Of a stretch of DNA of 47,520 nt, positions 30,081 to 35,287 are shown piece after piece. The position numbers were made by a program, and so were the translations under genes. The DNA is from Acidimicrobiia bacterium (GTDB lineage Bacteria > Actinomycetota > Acidimicrobiia > Acidimicrobiales > Aldehydirespiratoraceae): contig JAUIML010000005.1 in the NCBI GenBank assembly GCA_030432715.1, positions 1-47,520 on the forward strand, in the 5' to 3' direction. Position 1 is the first letter of the stretch; each line of letters starts with the position of its first letter. Below the pieces are notes generated by a model. The model searched no databases. It saw nothing but the letters and a program-made list of their open reading frames with translations, and was not told the origin of the DNA.

Positions 30081-31427
30081 ATGCGCCGCCGACCCGCCCT
30101 CGCCGTCCTCACCGCTCTGTGCCTCCTCGCCGCCGCCTGCGGAGACGACGCGGACGAAACGGCGGCCCCCACGTCCACCGCCGCCGACACCACGACGACC
30201 GGTGCGGCCGAACCCGACGAAGCCGCCACGACCACCACCGAACCGGTCGAACTGACCGCCAGCTTCCGAGGCGTGACCCCCGAGACCATCAAGGTCGGCA
30301 TCCTCACCTACGACTTCGACGGACTGGCCGCACTCGGGGTCAACTTCGGCCTGTCGAATGCCGGCGACCTGTATCTCGCCGCCATCGAGAGCGTCAACGA
30401 CCGGGGCGGCGTCCACGGCCGCATGCTCGAACCGGTGCTCAAGGAGTTCCTGCCCGTGCAGGGCACCGCTCCCGTCGACGCCGTCTGTGTGGAGCTGACC
30501 GAGGACGAGATGGTGTTCGTCGTCATCGGCACCACGCTGCAGGAACAGATCCTGTGTTTCACCGAGCTCAACGAGACCGCCGCGATCGTCACCTCGGGCA
30601 TCACCGAGGAACGCCAGGCGAAGGCCAAGGCCCCCTATGCCACGGTCGTCGACACCGCCGAAGGGCGGGCGGCGCGGTTCGCCGAGATCATGGAGGCCAC
30701 CGGTGTCTTCGACGACGCCACGGTGGGCGTGACCGGCGCGGTCGACGTGAGCCTGACCGGCTACGAGTCGGTCCTCGAAGCCCTGCGCGGGATCGGGATC
30801 GACCCGATCGAGGGTCTGATCGGAGGAAACGCCGACGACCTCAGCGCATCGGCCCGGGAGCAGGCGCTCATCTACCAGCGCATGGACGACGCCGGCGTCG
30901 ACGTGACCGTGTCGACCAGCGGCGTGCCGTTGACGATCGCCAACGCCATCGACGCGGGGTACGAGTCGCCCCAGTGGGTGCTCTCGACCGCCATGTCGGG
31001 CCGGGGGTTGACCGACGCCGGAGTGCCCCACGAGTACCTCGACGGCGCGCTCGCCGTGATGAACACCCCGATCGGCACCCCCGACCAGCCGGACATGGCC
31101 GATGACCCGCTCGTCGCCGGATGCGTCGACGATCTCGTCGCCCGCAGCGGTCACGAGGTGTTCTACGACCTCGACGCGGAGGTCAACGACCTCGCGCAGG
31201 CCCTCGGCGCCTGCGCCAACGTCGCGATCCTCGAGCAGGCCCTCCTCAACGCCGGTCCGGTCCTGACCAACGATTCGCTCCAGGCCGGACTCGAGGCGAT
31301 CGGCCCGATCGACCTGCCGGGCTACACCGACGCCTCGCTCGGTCCGGGTGACATGGGCGCGGTCAAGGGCCTCACGCTCGTGGAGTTCGACGCCGCGACC
31401 GGCCTCTGGAATCTCGTCGACGGCTGA
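30081..31427 (+). CDS. Substrate-binding lipoprotein, periplasmic-binding-protein type 1 (copy 1)
   Basis: A 448-residue lipoprotein: signal with lipobox LAAAC (Cys20), a Thr/Ala-rich linker to about residue 58, then a domain of the branched-chain amino-acid-binding type (TIKVGILTYDFDGL, AAIESVNDRGGVHGRMLEPV, a hinge around VGVTGAVDVSL). It should bind a small ligand outside the membrane for import or sensing. No permease or ATPase gene is adjacent, so its transporter is elsewhere or it is a receptor. The next gene is a close paralogue of the same length. Confidence 0.85.
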   Translation: MRRRPALAVLTALCLLAAACGDDADETAAPTSTAADTTTTGAAEPDEAATTTTEPVELTASFRGVTPETIKVGILTYDFDGLAALGVNFGLSNAGDLYLAAIESVNDRGGVHGRMLEPVLKEFLPVQGTAPVDAVCVELTEDEMVFVVIGTTLQEQILCFTELNETAAIVTSGITEERQAKAKAPYATVVDTAEGRAARFAEIMEATGVFDDATVGVTGAVDVSLTGYESVLEALRGIGIDPIEGLIGGNADDLSASAREQALIYQRMDDAGVDVTVSTSGVPLTIANAIDAGYESPQWVLSTAMSGRGLTDAGVPHEYLDGALAVMNTPIGTPDQPDMADDPLVAGCVDDLVARSGHEVFYDLDAEVNDLAQALGACANVAILEQALLNAGPVLTNDSLQAGLEAIGPIDLPGYTDASLGPGDMGAVKGLTLVEFDAATGLWNLVDG

Positions 31428-31466: not shown

Positions 31467-31485
31467 TCGCCTCCGATTGGGAGAC

Positions 31486-32832
31486 ATGGCTCGACGACGC
31501 TCCCTGCCCTTCGCGGCGACCCTCCTTGCTCTCGCACTGGCCTGTGCCGCGTGCGCGTCTGCCGACCCCTCCCCCGCCCCCGGAGCGCAACGGGAGGTCG
31601 AGGACACCACCGCCACCACCACGAGCCCGACCACCGAGCCCACCGCCGAGCCGACCCCCGAGCTCACGGCCTCGTTCCGCGGGGTCACTCCGGACACGAT
31701 CAGGGTCGGGATCACCGCGATCGACTGGGACACCCTGTCCGAGCTCGGGGTCGACTTCGGACGAACCAACGCCCTCGACCTCTGGACCGCCGCCCTCGAG
31801 GACATCAACCGGCGCGGCGGGGTCAACGGCCGGATGATCGAGATCCACGGTCGGGAGTTCCTCCCGCTCGGCAGCACCAGCTTCGACGAGGCCTGTGTCG
31901 AACTGACCCAGGACGAAGAGGTCTTCGTCGTCATCGGCCAGGCGCTCGACGAGCAGGTCCTGTGCTTCACCGAGCTCAACGACACGGCCGCGGTCGTCGT
32001 CGCCGGAATGACCGACTCGCTCCTCGACCGCAGCACCGCGCCCTACGCCACCCTCTGGGCCAGCTACGAGACCCAGGCGGCCAACCTCGTTGCGCTGGCC
32101 GAGGACCAGGGTGTGCTCGCCGGCGCGACGATCGGCGTGGTCGGCTCCGTCGACGCCGGAGCCCTCGAGTACGCCGCGACCGTCGAAGCTTTCCGCGACG
32201 CCGGCTACGACGTGGTCGAGGGGCTTGTCGGCGGCAACGCGAACGACCTCGGCGAGACCGCCCGCGACCAGGCGCTGGTCTACGAACGACTCAAGGAGGC
32301 GGGGGTCGACCTCACCGTCTCGACCACCGGTGTGCCGCTGGAGATCTTCAACGCCCAGGCGGAGAACTATCGCACCGACCAATGGCTCCTCACGGTCGTC
32401 ATGAGCCCGGCCGGTCTCCGCGACGCCGGTGTCGACCTCCCCTACCTCGACGGCGCGCTCGCCGTGGTCAACACGCCGGTCGCGACCTCCGCCCAGGAGT
32501 CGATGGCCGACGACGCCGACGTCGCCGCCTGCATCGACATGCTGGAAGCGACGAGCGACCACGAACTCGCCTACGAGATCGATGCAGAGGTGAGCGACCT
32601 CGCGTCGGGTCTCTATGCCTGCGCGATCACGCGGATCCTCGAGGCGGCCCTGACCGCGGCCGGCCCCGAACTCACCAACGACTCGTTCGCCGCCGCACTG
32701 GGCGGGCTGGGCGAGCTCGACCTCGCGGGGTACTTCGAGGCCTCGCTCGATGCGGACGACCTCGGCGCCGCGAAGGGTCTCCGTCTGGCTCGTTTCGACG
32801 CCGCCGCCGGGGCGTGGGAGCTGCTCGACTAG
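31486..32832 (+). CDS. Substrate-binding lipoprotein, periplasmic-binding-protein type 1 (copy 2)
   Basis: A 448-residue paralogue of the preceding gene, with the same order of elements: signal peptide (Cys20 or Cys23 as anchor, since LALACAAC offers two), a Thr/Pro linker, and the shared core ELTASFRGVTPDTIRVGI. Shared blocks such as LTVSTTGVPLEI and YLDGALAVVNTP show a tandem duplication followed by divergence. GGGAGA precedes the ATG; a TTG three codons upstream is possible. Ligand unknown. Confidence 0.85.
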   Translation: MARRRSLPFAATLLALALACAACASADPSPAPGAQREVEDTTATTTSPTTEPTAEPTPELTASFRGVTPDTIRVGITAIDWDTLSELGVDFGRTNALDLWTAALEDINRRGGVNGRMIEIHGREFLPLGSTSFDEACVELTQDEEVFVVIGQALDEQVLCFTELNDTAAVVVAGMTDSLLDRSTAPYATLWASYETQAANLVALAEDQGVLAGATIGVVGSVDAGALEYAATVEAFRDAGYDVVEGLVGGNANDLGETARDQALVYERLKEAGVDLTVSTTGVPLEIFNAQAENYRTDQWLLTVVMSPAGLRDAGVDLPYLDGALAVVNTPVATSAQESMADDADVAACIDMLEATSDHELAYEIDAEVSDLASGLYACAITRILEAALTAAGPELTNDSFAAALGGLGELDLAGYFEASLDADDLGAAKGLRLARFDAAAGAWELLD

Positions 32833-32866: not shown

Positions 32867-33730
32867 CTACCCCTGCAAGAGCGCGATCAGCGAGCTGGTG
32901 TCCCACCGCCCGTGGCCGTCGCGTTGGAGCCGGGCGTAGAACTGGTCGACGAGCGCGGTCACCGGCAACGAGGCACCGATCCGGTCGCCTTCGGTGAGGC
33001 AGATCCCGAGATCCTTGCGCATCCAGTCGAGGGCGAAACCGAAGTCGAACTCGCCCGCCGCCATCGTCGTCGCCCGGTTCTCCATCTGCCAGGAGCCGGC
33101 GGCACCCTTCGAGATCGTGTCGACCACCGTGGACACGTCGAGCCCGGCCCGCATCGCGAAGTCGATGCCCTCGGCGAGCCCCTGGAGCAAGCCGGCGATG
33201 GCGATCTGGTTGACCATCTTGCAGAGCTGGCCGGACCCCGCCGGGCCCAGCAGCGTGCAGGCGCGGCTGTAGGCGTCGATCACCGGCGCGGCCCGGTCGA
33301 AGTCGACCGACTCGCCGCCGCACATGACCGTGAGCACGCCGTTCTCGGCACCCGCCTGCCCGCCCGAGCTCGGCGCGTCGACGAATCCGACACCGCGGGC
33401 GTCGGCGGCCTCGTGGACCTCCCGTGCGACATCGGCCGACGCGGTCGTGTGGTCGACCAGCACCGCGCCCGCGACCATCGTCTCGAGTACCCCGTTCGGG
33501 CCGGTGGTCACCGCCCGCACGTCGGGGTCGTCACCGACACAGAGGAAGACGAAGTCCGCCCCCTCGGCCGCAGCCGCCGGCGTCGGCGCCGACGCCCCTC
33601 CGTGCGCTGCCACCCACGCCTCGGCTCGGGCCGGGGTGCGGTTGAAGACGGTGACCTCGTGACCGGCCGCCACGAGATGACCGGCCATGGGGTAGCCCAT
33701 GACGCCGAGACCGATGAATGCACATTTCAT
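32867..33730 (-). CDS. 3-hydroxyisobutyrate dehydrogenase family oxidoreductase
   Basis: A 287-residue beta-hydroxyacid dehydrogenase: N-terminal Rossmann motif FIGLGVMGYPMAGHL, substrate segment VDAPSSGGQAGAENG, catalytic Lys in GQLCKMVNQ, and an all-helical C-domain. It oxidises 3-hydroxyisobutyrate or a related 3-hydroxy acid with NAD(P). The start MKCAFIGLGVMG is standard for the family. It is divergent from the selenoprotein candidate, only 39 bp apart; CAGACT lies 6 nt before the ATG, a weak leaderless -10. Confidence 0.9.
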   Translation of the reverse strand: MKCAFIGLGVMGYPMAGHLVAAGHEVTVFNRTPARAEAWVAAHGGASAPTPAAAAEGADFVFLCVGDDPDVRAVTTGPNGVLETMVAGAVLVDHTTASADVAREVHEAADARGVGFVDAPSSGGQAGAENGVLTVMCGGESVDFDRAAPVIDAYSRACTLLGPAGSGQLCKMVNQIAIAGLLQGLAEGIDFAMRAGLDVSTVVDTISKGAAGSWQMENRATTMAAGEFDFGFALDWMRKDLGICLTEGDRIGASLPVTALVDQFYARLQRDGHGRWDTSSLIALLQG

Positions 33731-33757
33731 GCGCCGAGTCTGGCCTGAAAACGTCGC

Positions 33758-33763
33758 TAGGGT
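33758..33763 (+). promoter_or_regulatory. -10 element of a probable leaderless promoter
   Basis: TAGGGT is followed by 6 nt and then the GTG start of the selenoprotein candidate. The same hexamer and spacing occur before two other genes in this window. No good -35 is visible. Confidence 0.5.
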
Positions 33764-33769
33764 CGATGT

Positions 33770-34402
33770 GTGTCCGCTCCCGTCCGCATCGTCGCCTGGT
33801 CCGACTTCCTTTGACCCTGGTGCTATGTCGGGACGGTCCGTCTCGACGAGTTGCAGCGCCGTTTCGGCGACCGGATCGACGTGACGTGGAAGGCCTTCCT
33901 GCTGCGCACCGAGTCGAAGGCGACGGATCAGGAGAAGTTCGTCGCCTACACCCGGTCGTGGCTCCGTCCCGCGTCGGTCGAACCCGCCGCCGAGTTCACC
34001 GTGTGGTCGACCGACGAGCCCCAGCCGATCAGCAGCGTGCCGGCCCACGTCGCGGCCAAGTCGGTGGCGCTGCTCGACCCCGAGGCGGCCGACGCCTATC
34101 ACCACCGCCTACTGCGGGCCTACTTCACCGAGAACCGCACGATCTCCGATTGGGCGGTTCTGTGCGAGCTGGCCGCCGATGTCGGGCTCGACCGCGACGA
34201 GTTCCTCGCCTTCTCCGCCGAGCGGGAGCGGGTGCTGGCCGAGGAGGTGATCGCCGAGCACAACGAGGCGGTGCAGCAGGGCATCACCGCAGTGCCCACG
34301 ATGGTGATCGACGAGGTGCTCCCGGTCCAGGGGGCCCAGGAGGTCGACACCATCGCCCGGTGGATCGAGCGGCTCCTCGAGCGTCGCGCCGGCGGAACCT
34401 GA
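33770..34402 (+). CDS. Selenocysteine-containing DsbA/FrnE-family thiol oxidoreductase (candidate)
   Basis: Read through an in-frame TGA at 33812-33814, the 210-residue product starts MSAPVRIVAWSDFL-U-PWCYVG, the N-terminus of FrnE-like DsbA oxidoreductases, whose usual motif is C-P-W-C-Y-x-G. The TGA stands exactly at the first, nucleophilic Cys, giving U15-P-W-C18. The rest is intact: an inserted helical region, then the cis-Pro loop GITAVPTMVIDEVLPVQGAQ near the C-terminus. TGA is the only in-frame stop. A bacterial SECIS-like hairpin follows at the right distance. The only in-frame start before the TGA is GTG at 33770, with TAGGGT 6 nt upstream. A caller that treats TGA as stop would begin near 33851 and lose the active site. 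Alternatives are a nonsense mutation or a base-call error (TGC to TGA). Selenium genes are not in the window. Confidence 0.85.
33812..33847 (+). promoter_or_regulatory. Selenocysteine TGA codon and bacterial SECIS-like hairpin
   Basis: After TGA (33812-33814) and 12 nt, arm GTCGGGAC (33827-33834), loop GGTCC, arm GTCTCGAC (33840-33847) give eight pairs including one G-U. The apical loop begins 20 nt after the TGA and contains G and U, as the bacterial SECIS model requires (loop about 16-37 nt downstream; E. coli fdhF also has GGUC in its loop). It should recruit SelB during translation. Confidence 0.75.
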
Positions 34403-34430: not shown

Positions 34431-34772
34431 ATGAGCAACTGGATCGGGTGGAGGACCGCCCTCGTCGCGCTGGCCGTGGTCGGATCGACGGTCATCGCCT
34501 TGCTGATCGCCCTCACCGTCGCCGACGAGCAGCCCGCCTCGGGTGAGCGCTTCATGGTCGCCGAGGTGACCGTGACCCTCGACCGGTCGACCGTCACGCT
34601 CTCGGGACCGGTCCCGTCGGCCGCCGTCGCCGATGCGCTGGTCGACGCGGTGGCCGACCGGCCGGGCGTCGTCGCGGTGATCGACGAACTGGTCATCGAG
34701 CCGTCGGCCCCGAATCCCGCGCTCGACGCGGTACGCACCGGACTCGACGCGCTCGCGGCCCGGCCCGACTAG
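34431..34772 (+). CDS. Small membrane-anchored protein with BON-like domain
   Basis: A 113-residue protein with one N-terminal membrane segment (ALVALAVVGSTVIALLIALTV) and an outside domain whose pattern EVTVTLDRSTVTLSGPVPS followed by VADRPGVVAVIDELVI resembles a BON domain, a fold often found in envelope proteins that bind lipid or peptidoglycan surfaces. GGAGG precedes the ATG. Its stop overlaps that of the convergent PRTase gene in the tetranucleotide CTAG. Function unknown. Confidence 0.7.
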   Translation: MSNWIGWRTALVALAVVGSTVIALLIALTVADEQPASGERFMVAEVTVTLDRSTVTLSGPVPSAAVADALVDAVADRPGVVAVIDELVIEPSAPNPALDAVRTGLDALAARPD

Positions 34773-35287
34773 CGCGCCGCTGCGAGGCGGGTGCGACAGG
34801 CGACGACCGCGTCGACGCGTTCGGCCCCGGCCGCCATCAGCAGCTCCGCCAGATAGTGGAGCGTCGTGCCGGTGAGTATCACGTCGTCGACGAGCAGGAC
34901 CCGGCGACCGTCGACGTCCCCGTCGACCGCGTAACCGACGGTCTCGACGACGGCACGTCGCCTGGCCACCGGCGTGCCCCTGAGCCGGGTGGGCGCCGGC
35001 CCGCGGCGCAGGATCTCGGCCACCGGCAGTGCGAGGGCTTCGGCCACGACCGCGGCCAGCGCGGGGACGGGATGGGCGTGACGGTCGGGTCCCGGCGGCA
35101 CCGCGGCCACGAGTGGCGACCCGGGGATGTCGAGCGTTCGCGTGAACTCGCGCAGCAGCACCTCGAGGCTGCGGAGGGCCTCGGGGTCCCGCCGGTCCTT
35201 GGCCCCCGACAGCAACTCACCGAGCGGCGTCGGACGGTCGTCGTGGTCGAACCAGTACGGACCCATCACATGGATGTCGCCGATCAT
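34769..35287 (-). CDS. Phosphoribosyltransferase-domain protein, ComF-like
   Basis: A 172-residue protein with a type I PRTase fold; the PRPP-binding loop is VLLVDDVILTGTTL. There is no N-terminal zinc ribbon as in full ComF proteins, so a competence role cannot be claimed. It may be a nucleobase salvage enzyme or a helicase-associated PRTase. It is divergent from the HbhA-like gene; the shared spacer holds paired GTTAGCA repeats. Confidence 0.75.
   Translation of the reverse strand: MIGDIHVMGPYWFDHDDRPTPLGELLSGAKDRRDPEALRSLEVLLREFTRTLDIPGSPLVAAVPPGPDRHAHPVPALAAVVAEALALPVAEILRRGPAPTRLRGTPVARRRAVVETVGYAVDGDVDGRRVLLVDDVILTGTTLHYLAELLMAAGAERVDAVVACRTRLAAAR

Follow-up and report, generated by a model that had tools for sequence, protein, structure and literature searches.

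An apparent stop codon in the active site of a FrnE/DsbA-like thiol oxidoreductase gene from an Acidimicrobiia bacterium almost certainly encodes selenocysteine (Sec). The gene lies at positions 33,770 to 34,402 (forward strand) of the 47,520-nucleotide stretch of DNA that we analyzed, referred to here as the window, and specifies 210 residues with Sec at residue 15. With very high confidence, we identify its product as a FrnE-type member of the DsbA family that takes up Sec at the UGA of codon 15, probably acting as a cytoplasmic Sec-Pro-Trp-Cys disulfide reductase or isomerase. An earlier note, made from the letters of the window, had put the gene forward as a candidate U-x-x-C selenoprotein. 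That proposal is now supported by conservation of the TGA among homologues, a tRNA-Sec together with selA and selB in the same genome, a SECIS hairpin, and purifying selection, from which we infer Sec insertion itself at codon 15. Because the apparent stop almost certainly encodes Sec, ordinary annotation would break a working enzyme.

An in-frame TGA replaces the first active-site cysteine

The frame from 33,770 to 34,402 translates as VSAPVRIVAWSDFL*PWCYVG..., with a single internal TGA at codon 15 (33,812 to 33,814, forward strand) and a terminal TGA at 34,400 to 34,402. We assigned the start to the GTG at 33,770 because an in-frame TAG ends at 33,760 and no other ATG, GTG, or TTG lies in frame between that TAG and the internal TGA. 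The read-through product matches the DSBA domain in Pfam (PF01323, E = 7.7e-25), and translation places the internal TGA precisely where the CPWC active site has its first Cys, in agreement with the coordinates and description given in the earlier note. The TGA is followed by 195 sense codons, and therefore 189 codons follow PWCYVG, not the 192 counted previously. The frame has no other internal stop, and the frames of close relatives with the TGA are otherwise open. It was also correctly anticipated that ordinary annotation would miss or truncate the gene: translation table 11 splits it at the TGA, such that the annotated gene would either end after 14 residues or start late, and in both cases the active site would be lost.

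The TGA is conserved in the family and alternates with cysteine codons in more distant homologues

We searched 51 genomes of the family, including the window's own genome, for homologues at a threshold of E = 1e-10. A homologue was detected in 27 genomes, and all 27 contain an internal TGA, always at the same codon and always in the context W[ST]DFL-TGA-PWC, at identities ranging down to 50%. Since the same codon is TGA in 27 of 27 family homologues, the TGA is neither a chance event nor a sequencing error.

We then considered a wider set of 129 loci (27 from the family, 22 from the class, and 80 named records). Removal of 2 loci truncated before the site and 26 duplicates left 101 distinct loci, in which the site codon is TGA in 57, TGC in 26, TGT in 15, and Ser in 3. 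Thus, the alternation between TGA and TGC or TGT that the earlier note had proposed to look for is present, with conserved flanks. All 42 distinct rows with at least 50% identity have TGA, and close relatives combining the TGA with further inactivating changes are absent, their frames being otherwise open. The nearest named records are labelled as Acidimicrobiales, Acidimicrobiaceae, or Actinomycetes. Cys versions, at 38–48% identity, come mainly from Myxococcota and Deltaproteobacteria, with three rows from the same class (L100, L101, and L105). The Gammaproteobacteria contribute a small TGA group. TGA versions found outside Actinomycetota are L172, L175, and L180 (Gammaproteobacteria) and L188 (Myxococcota), and these possibly represent separate gains of Sec or transfers.

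On a quick tree of 95 rows, from which 6 of the 101 loci were dropped as too distant and for which SH-aLRT is the sole measure of support, the Sec/Cys state changes at least six times by parsimony, and at least four changes are forced by starred branches. Both states occur within a single genus (code g102), with TGA in one genome (G065, locus L102) and TGC in another (G106, locus L100).

The search at the class level returned matches in 77 of 395 genomes, 15 with TGA at the site and 62 without; the codon was read directly for fetched loci, and elsewhere in the class "not TGA" denotes a match with no internal stops. Most of the 62 non-TGA genomes match at just 29–39% identity. Twelve such rows were placed on the tree, where they group apart from the rest as a Cys clade with a long branch; accordingly, these matches probably belong to another FrnE sub-family. 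In one genome (G358), a TGA copy is accompanied by a second match without a stop, and in two others (G231 and G113) the site is Cys and the sole stop is terminal.

A SECIS hairpin follows the TGA

A bacterial SECIS hairpin is located at 33,828 to 33,846 (forward strand), 14 to 32 bases after the TGA. Its stem of 7 bp pairs 33,828–33,834 with 33,840–33,846 and encloses a 5-nt loop (GGTCC, 33,835–33,839) with a GU at 33,836–33,837. The published model of the bacterial SECIS describes a loop of 3–9 nt, a stem of 4–16 bp, a G within the first two loop positions, 16–37 nt between the UGA and the loop, and a minimum free energy of at most −7.5 kcal/mol (PMC13188914). The window hairpin falls within these limits, with G at loop positions 1 and 2, 20 nt between the UGA and the loop, and −18.8 kcal/mol over 48 nt.

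The hairpin is shared by relatives of the gene. In each of the 27 family rows, the 19-nt hairpin has 5 bp or more and the 48-nt segment attains −7.5 kcal/mol, with an A-C mismatch breaking one pair in 4 of the 27. Among all TGA rows, 56 of 57 form at least 5 bp in the 19-nt hairpin and 54 of 57 reach −7.5 kcal/mol (the remaining three are L172, L175, and L145). The four TGA versions from outside Actinomycetota keep just 3 to 5 of the 7 pairs of the window's stem, and the hairpin after their TGA is weaker or of another form.

In the alignment, 97.9% of stem cells are paired, compared with 27–42% for control structures slid along the sequence, and both sides of a pair have changed in 17 cells, compared with 7.1 in shuffles. 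The number of paired cells, the number of both-side-changed cells, and the covariation score each exceed 500 of 500 shuffles. Compensatory changes are found at two stem pairs (C-G/G-C, in 14 and 9 rows; A-U/G-C, in 18 and 8 rows). Neither the count of compensatory pairs (two) nor that of pair types is above the shuffles, being reached by 487 of 500. Four stem pairs never vary and are uninformative on covariation. Unconstrained folding with RNAalifold recovered the same stem with three additional lower pairs.

As a null for the effect of the coding sequence, synonymous codons were drawn at each gene's own usage; the 3 Ser rows were excluded. TGA rows (n = 57) have 6.54 stem pairs, compared with 4.38 expected from codon choice, whereas Cys rows (n = 41) have 3.22, compared with 3.16 expected. 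Row by row, pairing reached P ≤ 0.05 in 35 of 57 TGA rows and 0 of 41 Cys rows, and folding energy did so in 34 of 57 and 3 of 41, respectively. Because pairing goes beyond codon choice in the TGA rows and not in the Cys rows, the stem tracks the TGA codon and not the protein sequence. One of the compensatory pairs links the wobble position of a Gly codon to position 1 of a Leu/Val codon, so the choice of amino acid there may be influenced by RNA pairing.

Synonymous substitutions were not consistently scarcer among the SECIS codons than elsewhere in the gene. We also discounted the invariant GU of the loop as SECIS evidence: the corresponding GT is present in 57 of 57 TGA rows, but these two bases open a conserved Val codon, and 18 of 41 Cys rows have them too. 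The Rfam model RF00031 (SECIS_1) had no match in the window's own genome, a result that is uninformative because the model likewise matched none of 14 controls.

Selenocysteine machinery in the genome and its relatives

The assembly that contains the window (3.68 Mb, 310 contigs, 82.86% complete) encodes a tRNA-Sec with anticodon UCA (64 bits, cut-off 47) and adjacent selA (5e-97) and selB (2.1e-84) genes on contig C287. Of the four components for which the earlier note had proposed a search, the tRNA-Sec, selA, and selB are thus in place; selD was not found above cut-off in this 82.86%-complete genome (best match, 37 of 125 bits), an absence that counts in part against the proposal.

Of the 51 family genomes, 50 have SelA, among them all 27 with the TGA gene; since nearly all family genomes have it, its presence does not discriminate at this level. 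Above-cut-off SelD matches occur in 44 of the 51, and 22 of these 44 genomes are among the 27 with the FrnE-like TGA gene. All 44 matches contain a TGA of their own. In the SelD of family relatives (L076–L095; 20 loci fetched), the sequence reads SHGAG-TGA-[GA][CS]K in 13 of 13 cases read, and SelD of this family is itself a selenoprotein. Seventeen family genomes (G001–G017, genus codes g2 and g3) present another pattern, with SelA in 17 of 17, SelD with a TGA in 16 of 17, and a FrnE match at 1e-10 in none.

Across the class, SelA exceeds its cut-off in 263 of 395 genomes. It was detected in 14 of 15 class genomes with a TGA copy, compared with 31 of 62 without (Fisher P = 0.0026, not corrected for relatedness). 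The lone TGA-copy genome with no SelA match (G237) is 79% complete.

We also examined formate dehydrogenase alpha (TIGR01591) in the window's own genome. Eight matches were obtained, all of which fell below the cut-off and lacked an internal stop; accordingly, no Sec-containing formate dehydrogenase was seen in this incomplete genome. A 767-residue frame with sub-cut-off matches resembling formate dehydrogenase alpha and without an internal stop (L199, L202, and L203) lies at about 30.6–32.7 kb of contig C287, the contig that also carries selA and selB.

The read-through product is under purifying selection and is predicted to fold as FrnE

The coding sequence downstream of the TGA is under purifying selection, with dN/dS of 0.095–0.28 relative to five relatives of the same genus. 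The family alignment has 47 invariant columns, with residues 10–24 belonging to its best-conserved part. Positions 15 and 18 are the only ones that are Cys or Sec in all 27 family proteins, and they form the U-P-W-C redox motif (Sec15 and Cys18; 33,812 to 33,823, forward strand). It follows that a C-terminal CXXXXC motif is absent. A T-A-V-P loop at residues 173–176 (34,286 to 34,297, forward strand), in which T, V, and P are invariant in the 27-row alignment, is presumably the cis-Pro loop that faces the active site in thioredoxin-fold biochemistry.

The AlphaFold model, built from the 27-row alignment, has a mean pLDDT of 93.5 and places Sec15 immediately before a helix spanning residues 16–35. 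Foldseek ranked FrnE of Deinococcus radiodurans (5co3; E = 1e-11, TM 0.79) first and SCO1869 (TM 0.74) fifth. A sequence profile also finds these two proteins over their full length (D. radiodurans FrnE 5cnw, 1.5e-22; SCO1869 3gl5, 6.5e-20). These models predict that the read-through protein folds as FrnE. No NCBIfam model exceeded its cut-off; the best was NF041057, a (seleno)lipoprotein family, which covers residues 89–201 with 43 of 190 bits.

In the mechanism that we propose, SelB carrying Sec-tRNA-Sec would bind the hairpin 14–32 nt downstream of the UGA, and Sec would be inserted; recognition of a SECIS can be species-specific. The resulting Sec-Pro-Trp-Cys active site would sit at the N-terminus of helix 1, where the selenolate would attack target disulfides. 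The mixed selenosulfide would in turn be resolved by Cys18, and the enzyme would act as a disulfide reductase or isomerase. The direction of catalysis, the substrate, and the electron donor are likewise inferred. The protein lacks the C-terminal CXXXXC of D. radiodurans FrnE (drFrnE), and so an external reductant, for example a thioredoxin or a low-molecular-weight thiol, is most likely. The N-terminus does not look signal-like by eye, and a cytoplasmic location therefore seems probable; FrnE proteins in general are predicted to be cytoplasmic (PMC8945050).

Alternative explanations for the internal TGA

The gene could be an ordinary CPWC FrnE gene hit by a nonsense mutation, as TGA is one base from TGC and TGT and table 11 splits the gene. 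However, at identities as low as 50%, 27 of 27 family homologues retain both the TGA and an otherwise open frame, dN/dS is 0.095–0.28, and 47 columns are invariant; we regard a pseudogene as extremely unlikely. An error of sequencing or assembly at 33,812–33,814 might be suspected in a draft of 310 contigs, but the identical TGA occurs in 26 other family genomes and in named records that stem from several projects (and partly represent the same genomes), and the probability of such an error is negligible. Conservation of the TGA in independent genomes excludes both explanations.

Two further readings accept the TGA as genuine. The UGA could specify Cys or Trp through an opal suppressor tRNA or an altered genetic code, for which the homologous residue being Cys offers some encouragement; suppressor tRNA-Cys(UCA) has been reported in other systems. 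Yet among 37 tRNA matches in this incomplete genome, there is no UCA anticodon besides that of tRNA-Sec (the tRNA-Cys is GCA and the tRNA-Trp CCA), the FrnE-like gene itself terminates with TGA, and the SECIS hairpin, SelA, and SelB fit Sec. We consider this decoding very improbable. The last reading divides the gene into two products, a 14-residue leader and a shorter protein from the TTG at 33,851 or another start. An open reading frame does exist at 33,851–34,402, but a protein starting at residue 28 would lose strand 1, the active site, and over half of helix 1, whereas residues 10–24 are in the best-conserved part of the alignment; there is scarcely any chance that it is correct. Reading of the UGA as Sec in a single full-length FrnE-type protein is therefore our preferred explanation.

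Genomic neighborhood

In the window, the gene is flanked by a divergent 3-hydroxyisobutyrate dehydrogenase-like gene (32,867 to 33,733, reverse strand) and, downstream, a gene with a phosphoribosyltransferase domain (34,769 to 35,287, reverse strand), both assigned by Pfam. These are found near the FrnE-like gene in 41 and 42, respectively, of 73 loci, a set that overlaps between collections. A small BON-domain gene between the FrnE-like and phosphoribosyltransferase genes occurs in the window only, among the 73 loci examined. Further upstream, two adjacent open reading frames (30,081–31,427, 448 residues; 31,477–32,832, 451 residues) look similar to each other and lipoprotein-like by eye, and they may be a tandem duplication. 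The former has no Pfam match at 0.001.

Implications for FrnE in the Acidimicrobiia

Sec has been retained in no fewer than 13 genus-level groups, of which 7 belong to the family and 6 more to the class. On balance, we favor a history in which Sec became fixed early in the FrnE of this clade, whereas sister lineages (family code f40 and Myxococcota) moved repeatedly between Sec and Cys, and the SECIS stem came or went together with the codon. If this is true, FrnE would be a natural test set for selenium selection in a cytoplasmic disulfide reductase, and frnE annotations would be split or missing in many Acidimicrobiales genomes. Because Sec and Cys versions occur in one genus (TGA in G065, TGC in G106), matched pairs are available to measure the contribution of Sec to a disulfide reductase.

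Comparison with known systems

Selenoproteins of this type have precedents. The FrnE proteins correspond, we presume, to COG2761. UxxC DsbA-like selenoproteins of COG2761 have been in print since 2005, when nine sequences were described from the Sargasso Sea (PMC1088965). The Global Ocean Sampling data include "DsbA 1," with 63 as the first count in the table (PMC2398784), and 45 UxxC DsbA-like selenoproteins in 41 organisms were counted in bacterial genomes (PMC5029168). DsbA-like selenoproteins are also listed in a review (PMC9312934), and a 2026 review describes a DsbA-like "form 1" (NIP15863.1) and names Asgard archaea as well (PMC13188914). Passages of these accounts on DsbA-like selenoproteins name no Acidimicrobiia, which the supplementary tables may already list. 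Judged by titles and the opening of abstracts, the literature on selenoproteins in acidimicrobial taxa contained nothing on this lineage, and that combining selenoprotein with FrnE contained no bacterial FrnE selenoprotein. The window protein shares PF01323 and a UxxC motif with Sec first with DsbA-like selenoprotein form 1, or "DsbA 1" (PMC1088965, PMC2398784, PMC13188914). A bacterial SECIS was shown for the Sargasso DsbA-like family, to which the likeness of the window gene is one of domain and motif only.

Among characterized proteins, drFrnE (5cnw, 5co3) and SCO1869 of Streptomyces coelicolor (3gl5) have the same fold and a full-length sequence relation to the window protein, at 25–26% identity. 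In the window protein, Sec replaces the first Cys of the active site, which is of the CP(W/F)C type in Deinococcus FrnE (PMC8945050). The C-terminal CXXXXC of drFrnE, absent from the window protein, is found in many but not all FrnE proteins and is also lacking in FrnE of S. roseofulvus (PMC8945050). drFrnE is a proposed cytoplasmic disulfide reductase, and its mutant is sensitive to cadmium and diamide (PMC8945050). Closer in sequence are Cys-containing FrnE proteins from Myxococcota and from the window's own class (L100, L101, and L105), which are 38–48% identical over nearly the full length and have CPWC; they differ from the window gene in having TGC or TGT at the site and in that, taken together, their SECIS stem does not exceed the expectation from codon choice. 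The type of selenium enzyme is thus already known, and the window gene adds a member, placing this selenoprotein type in a family of mostly uncultured Acidimicrobiales in which all 27 copies found have the TGA.
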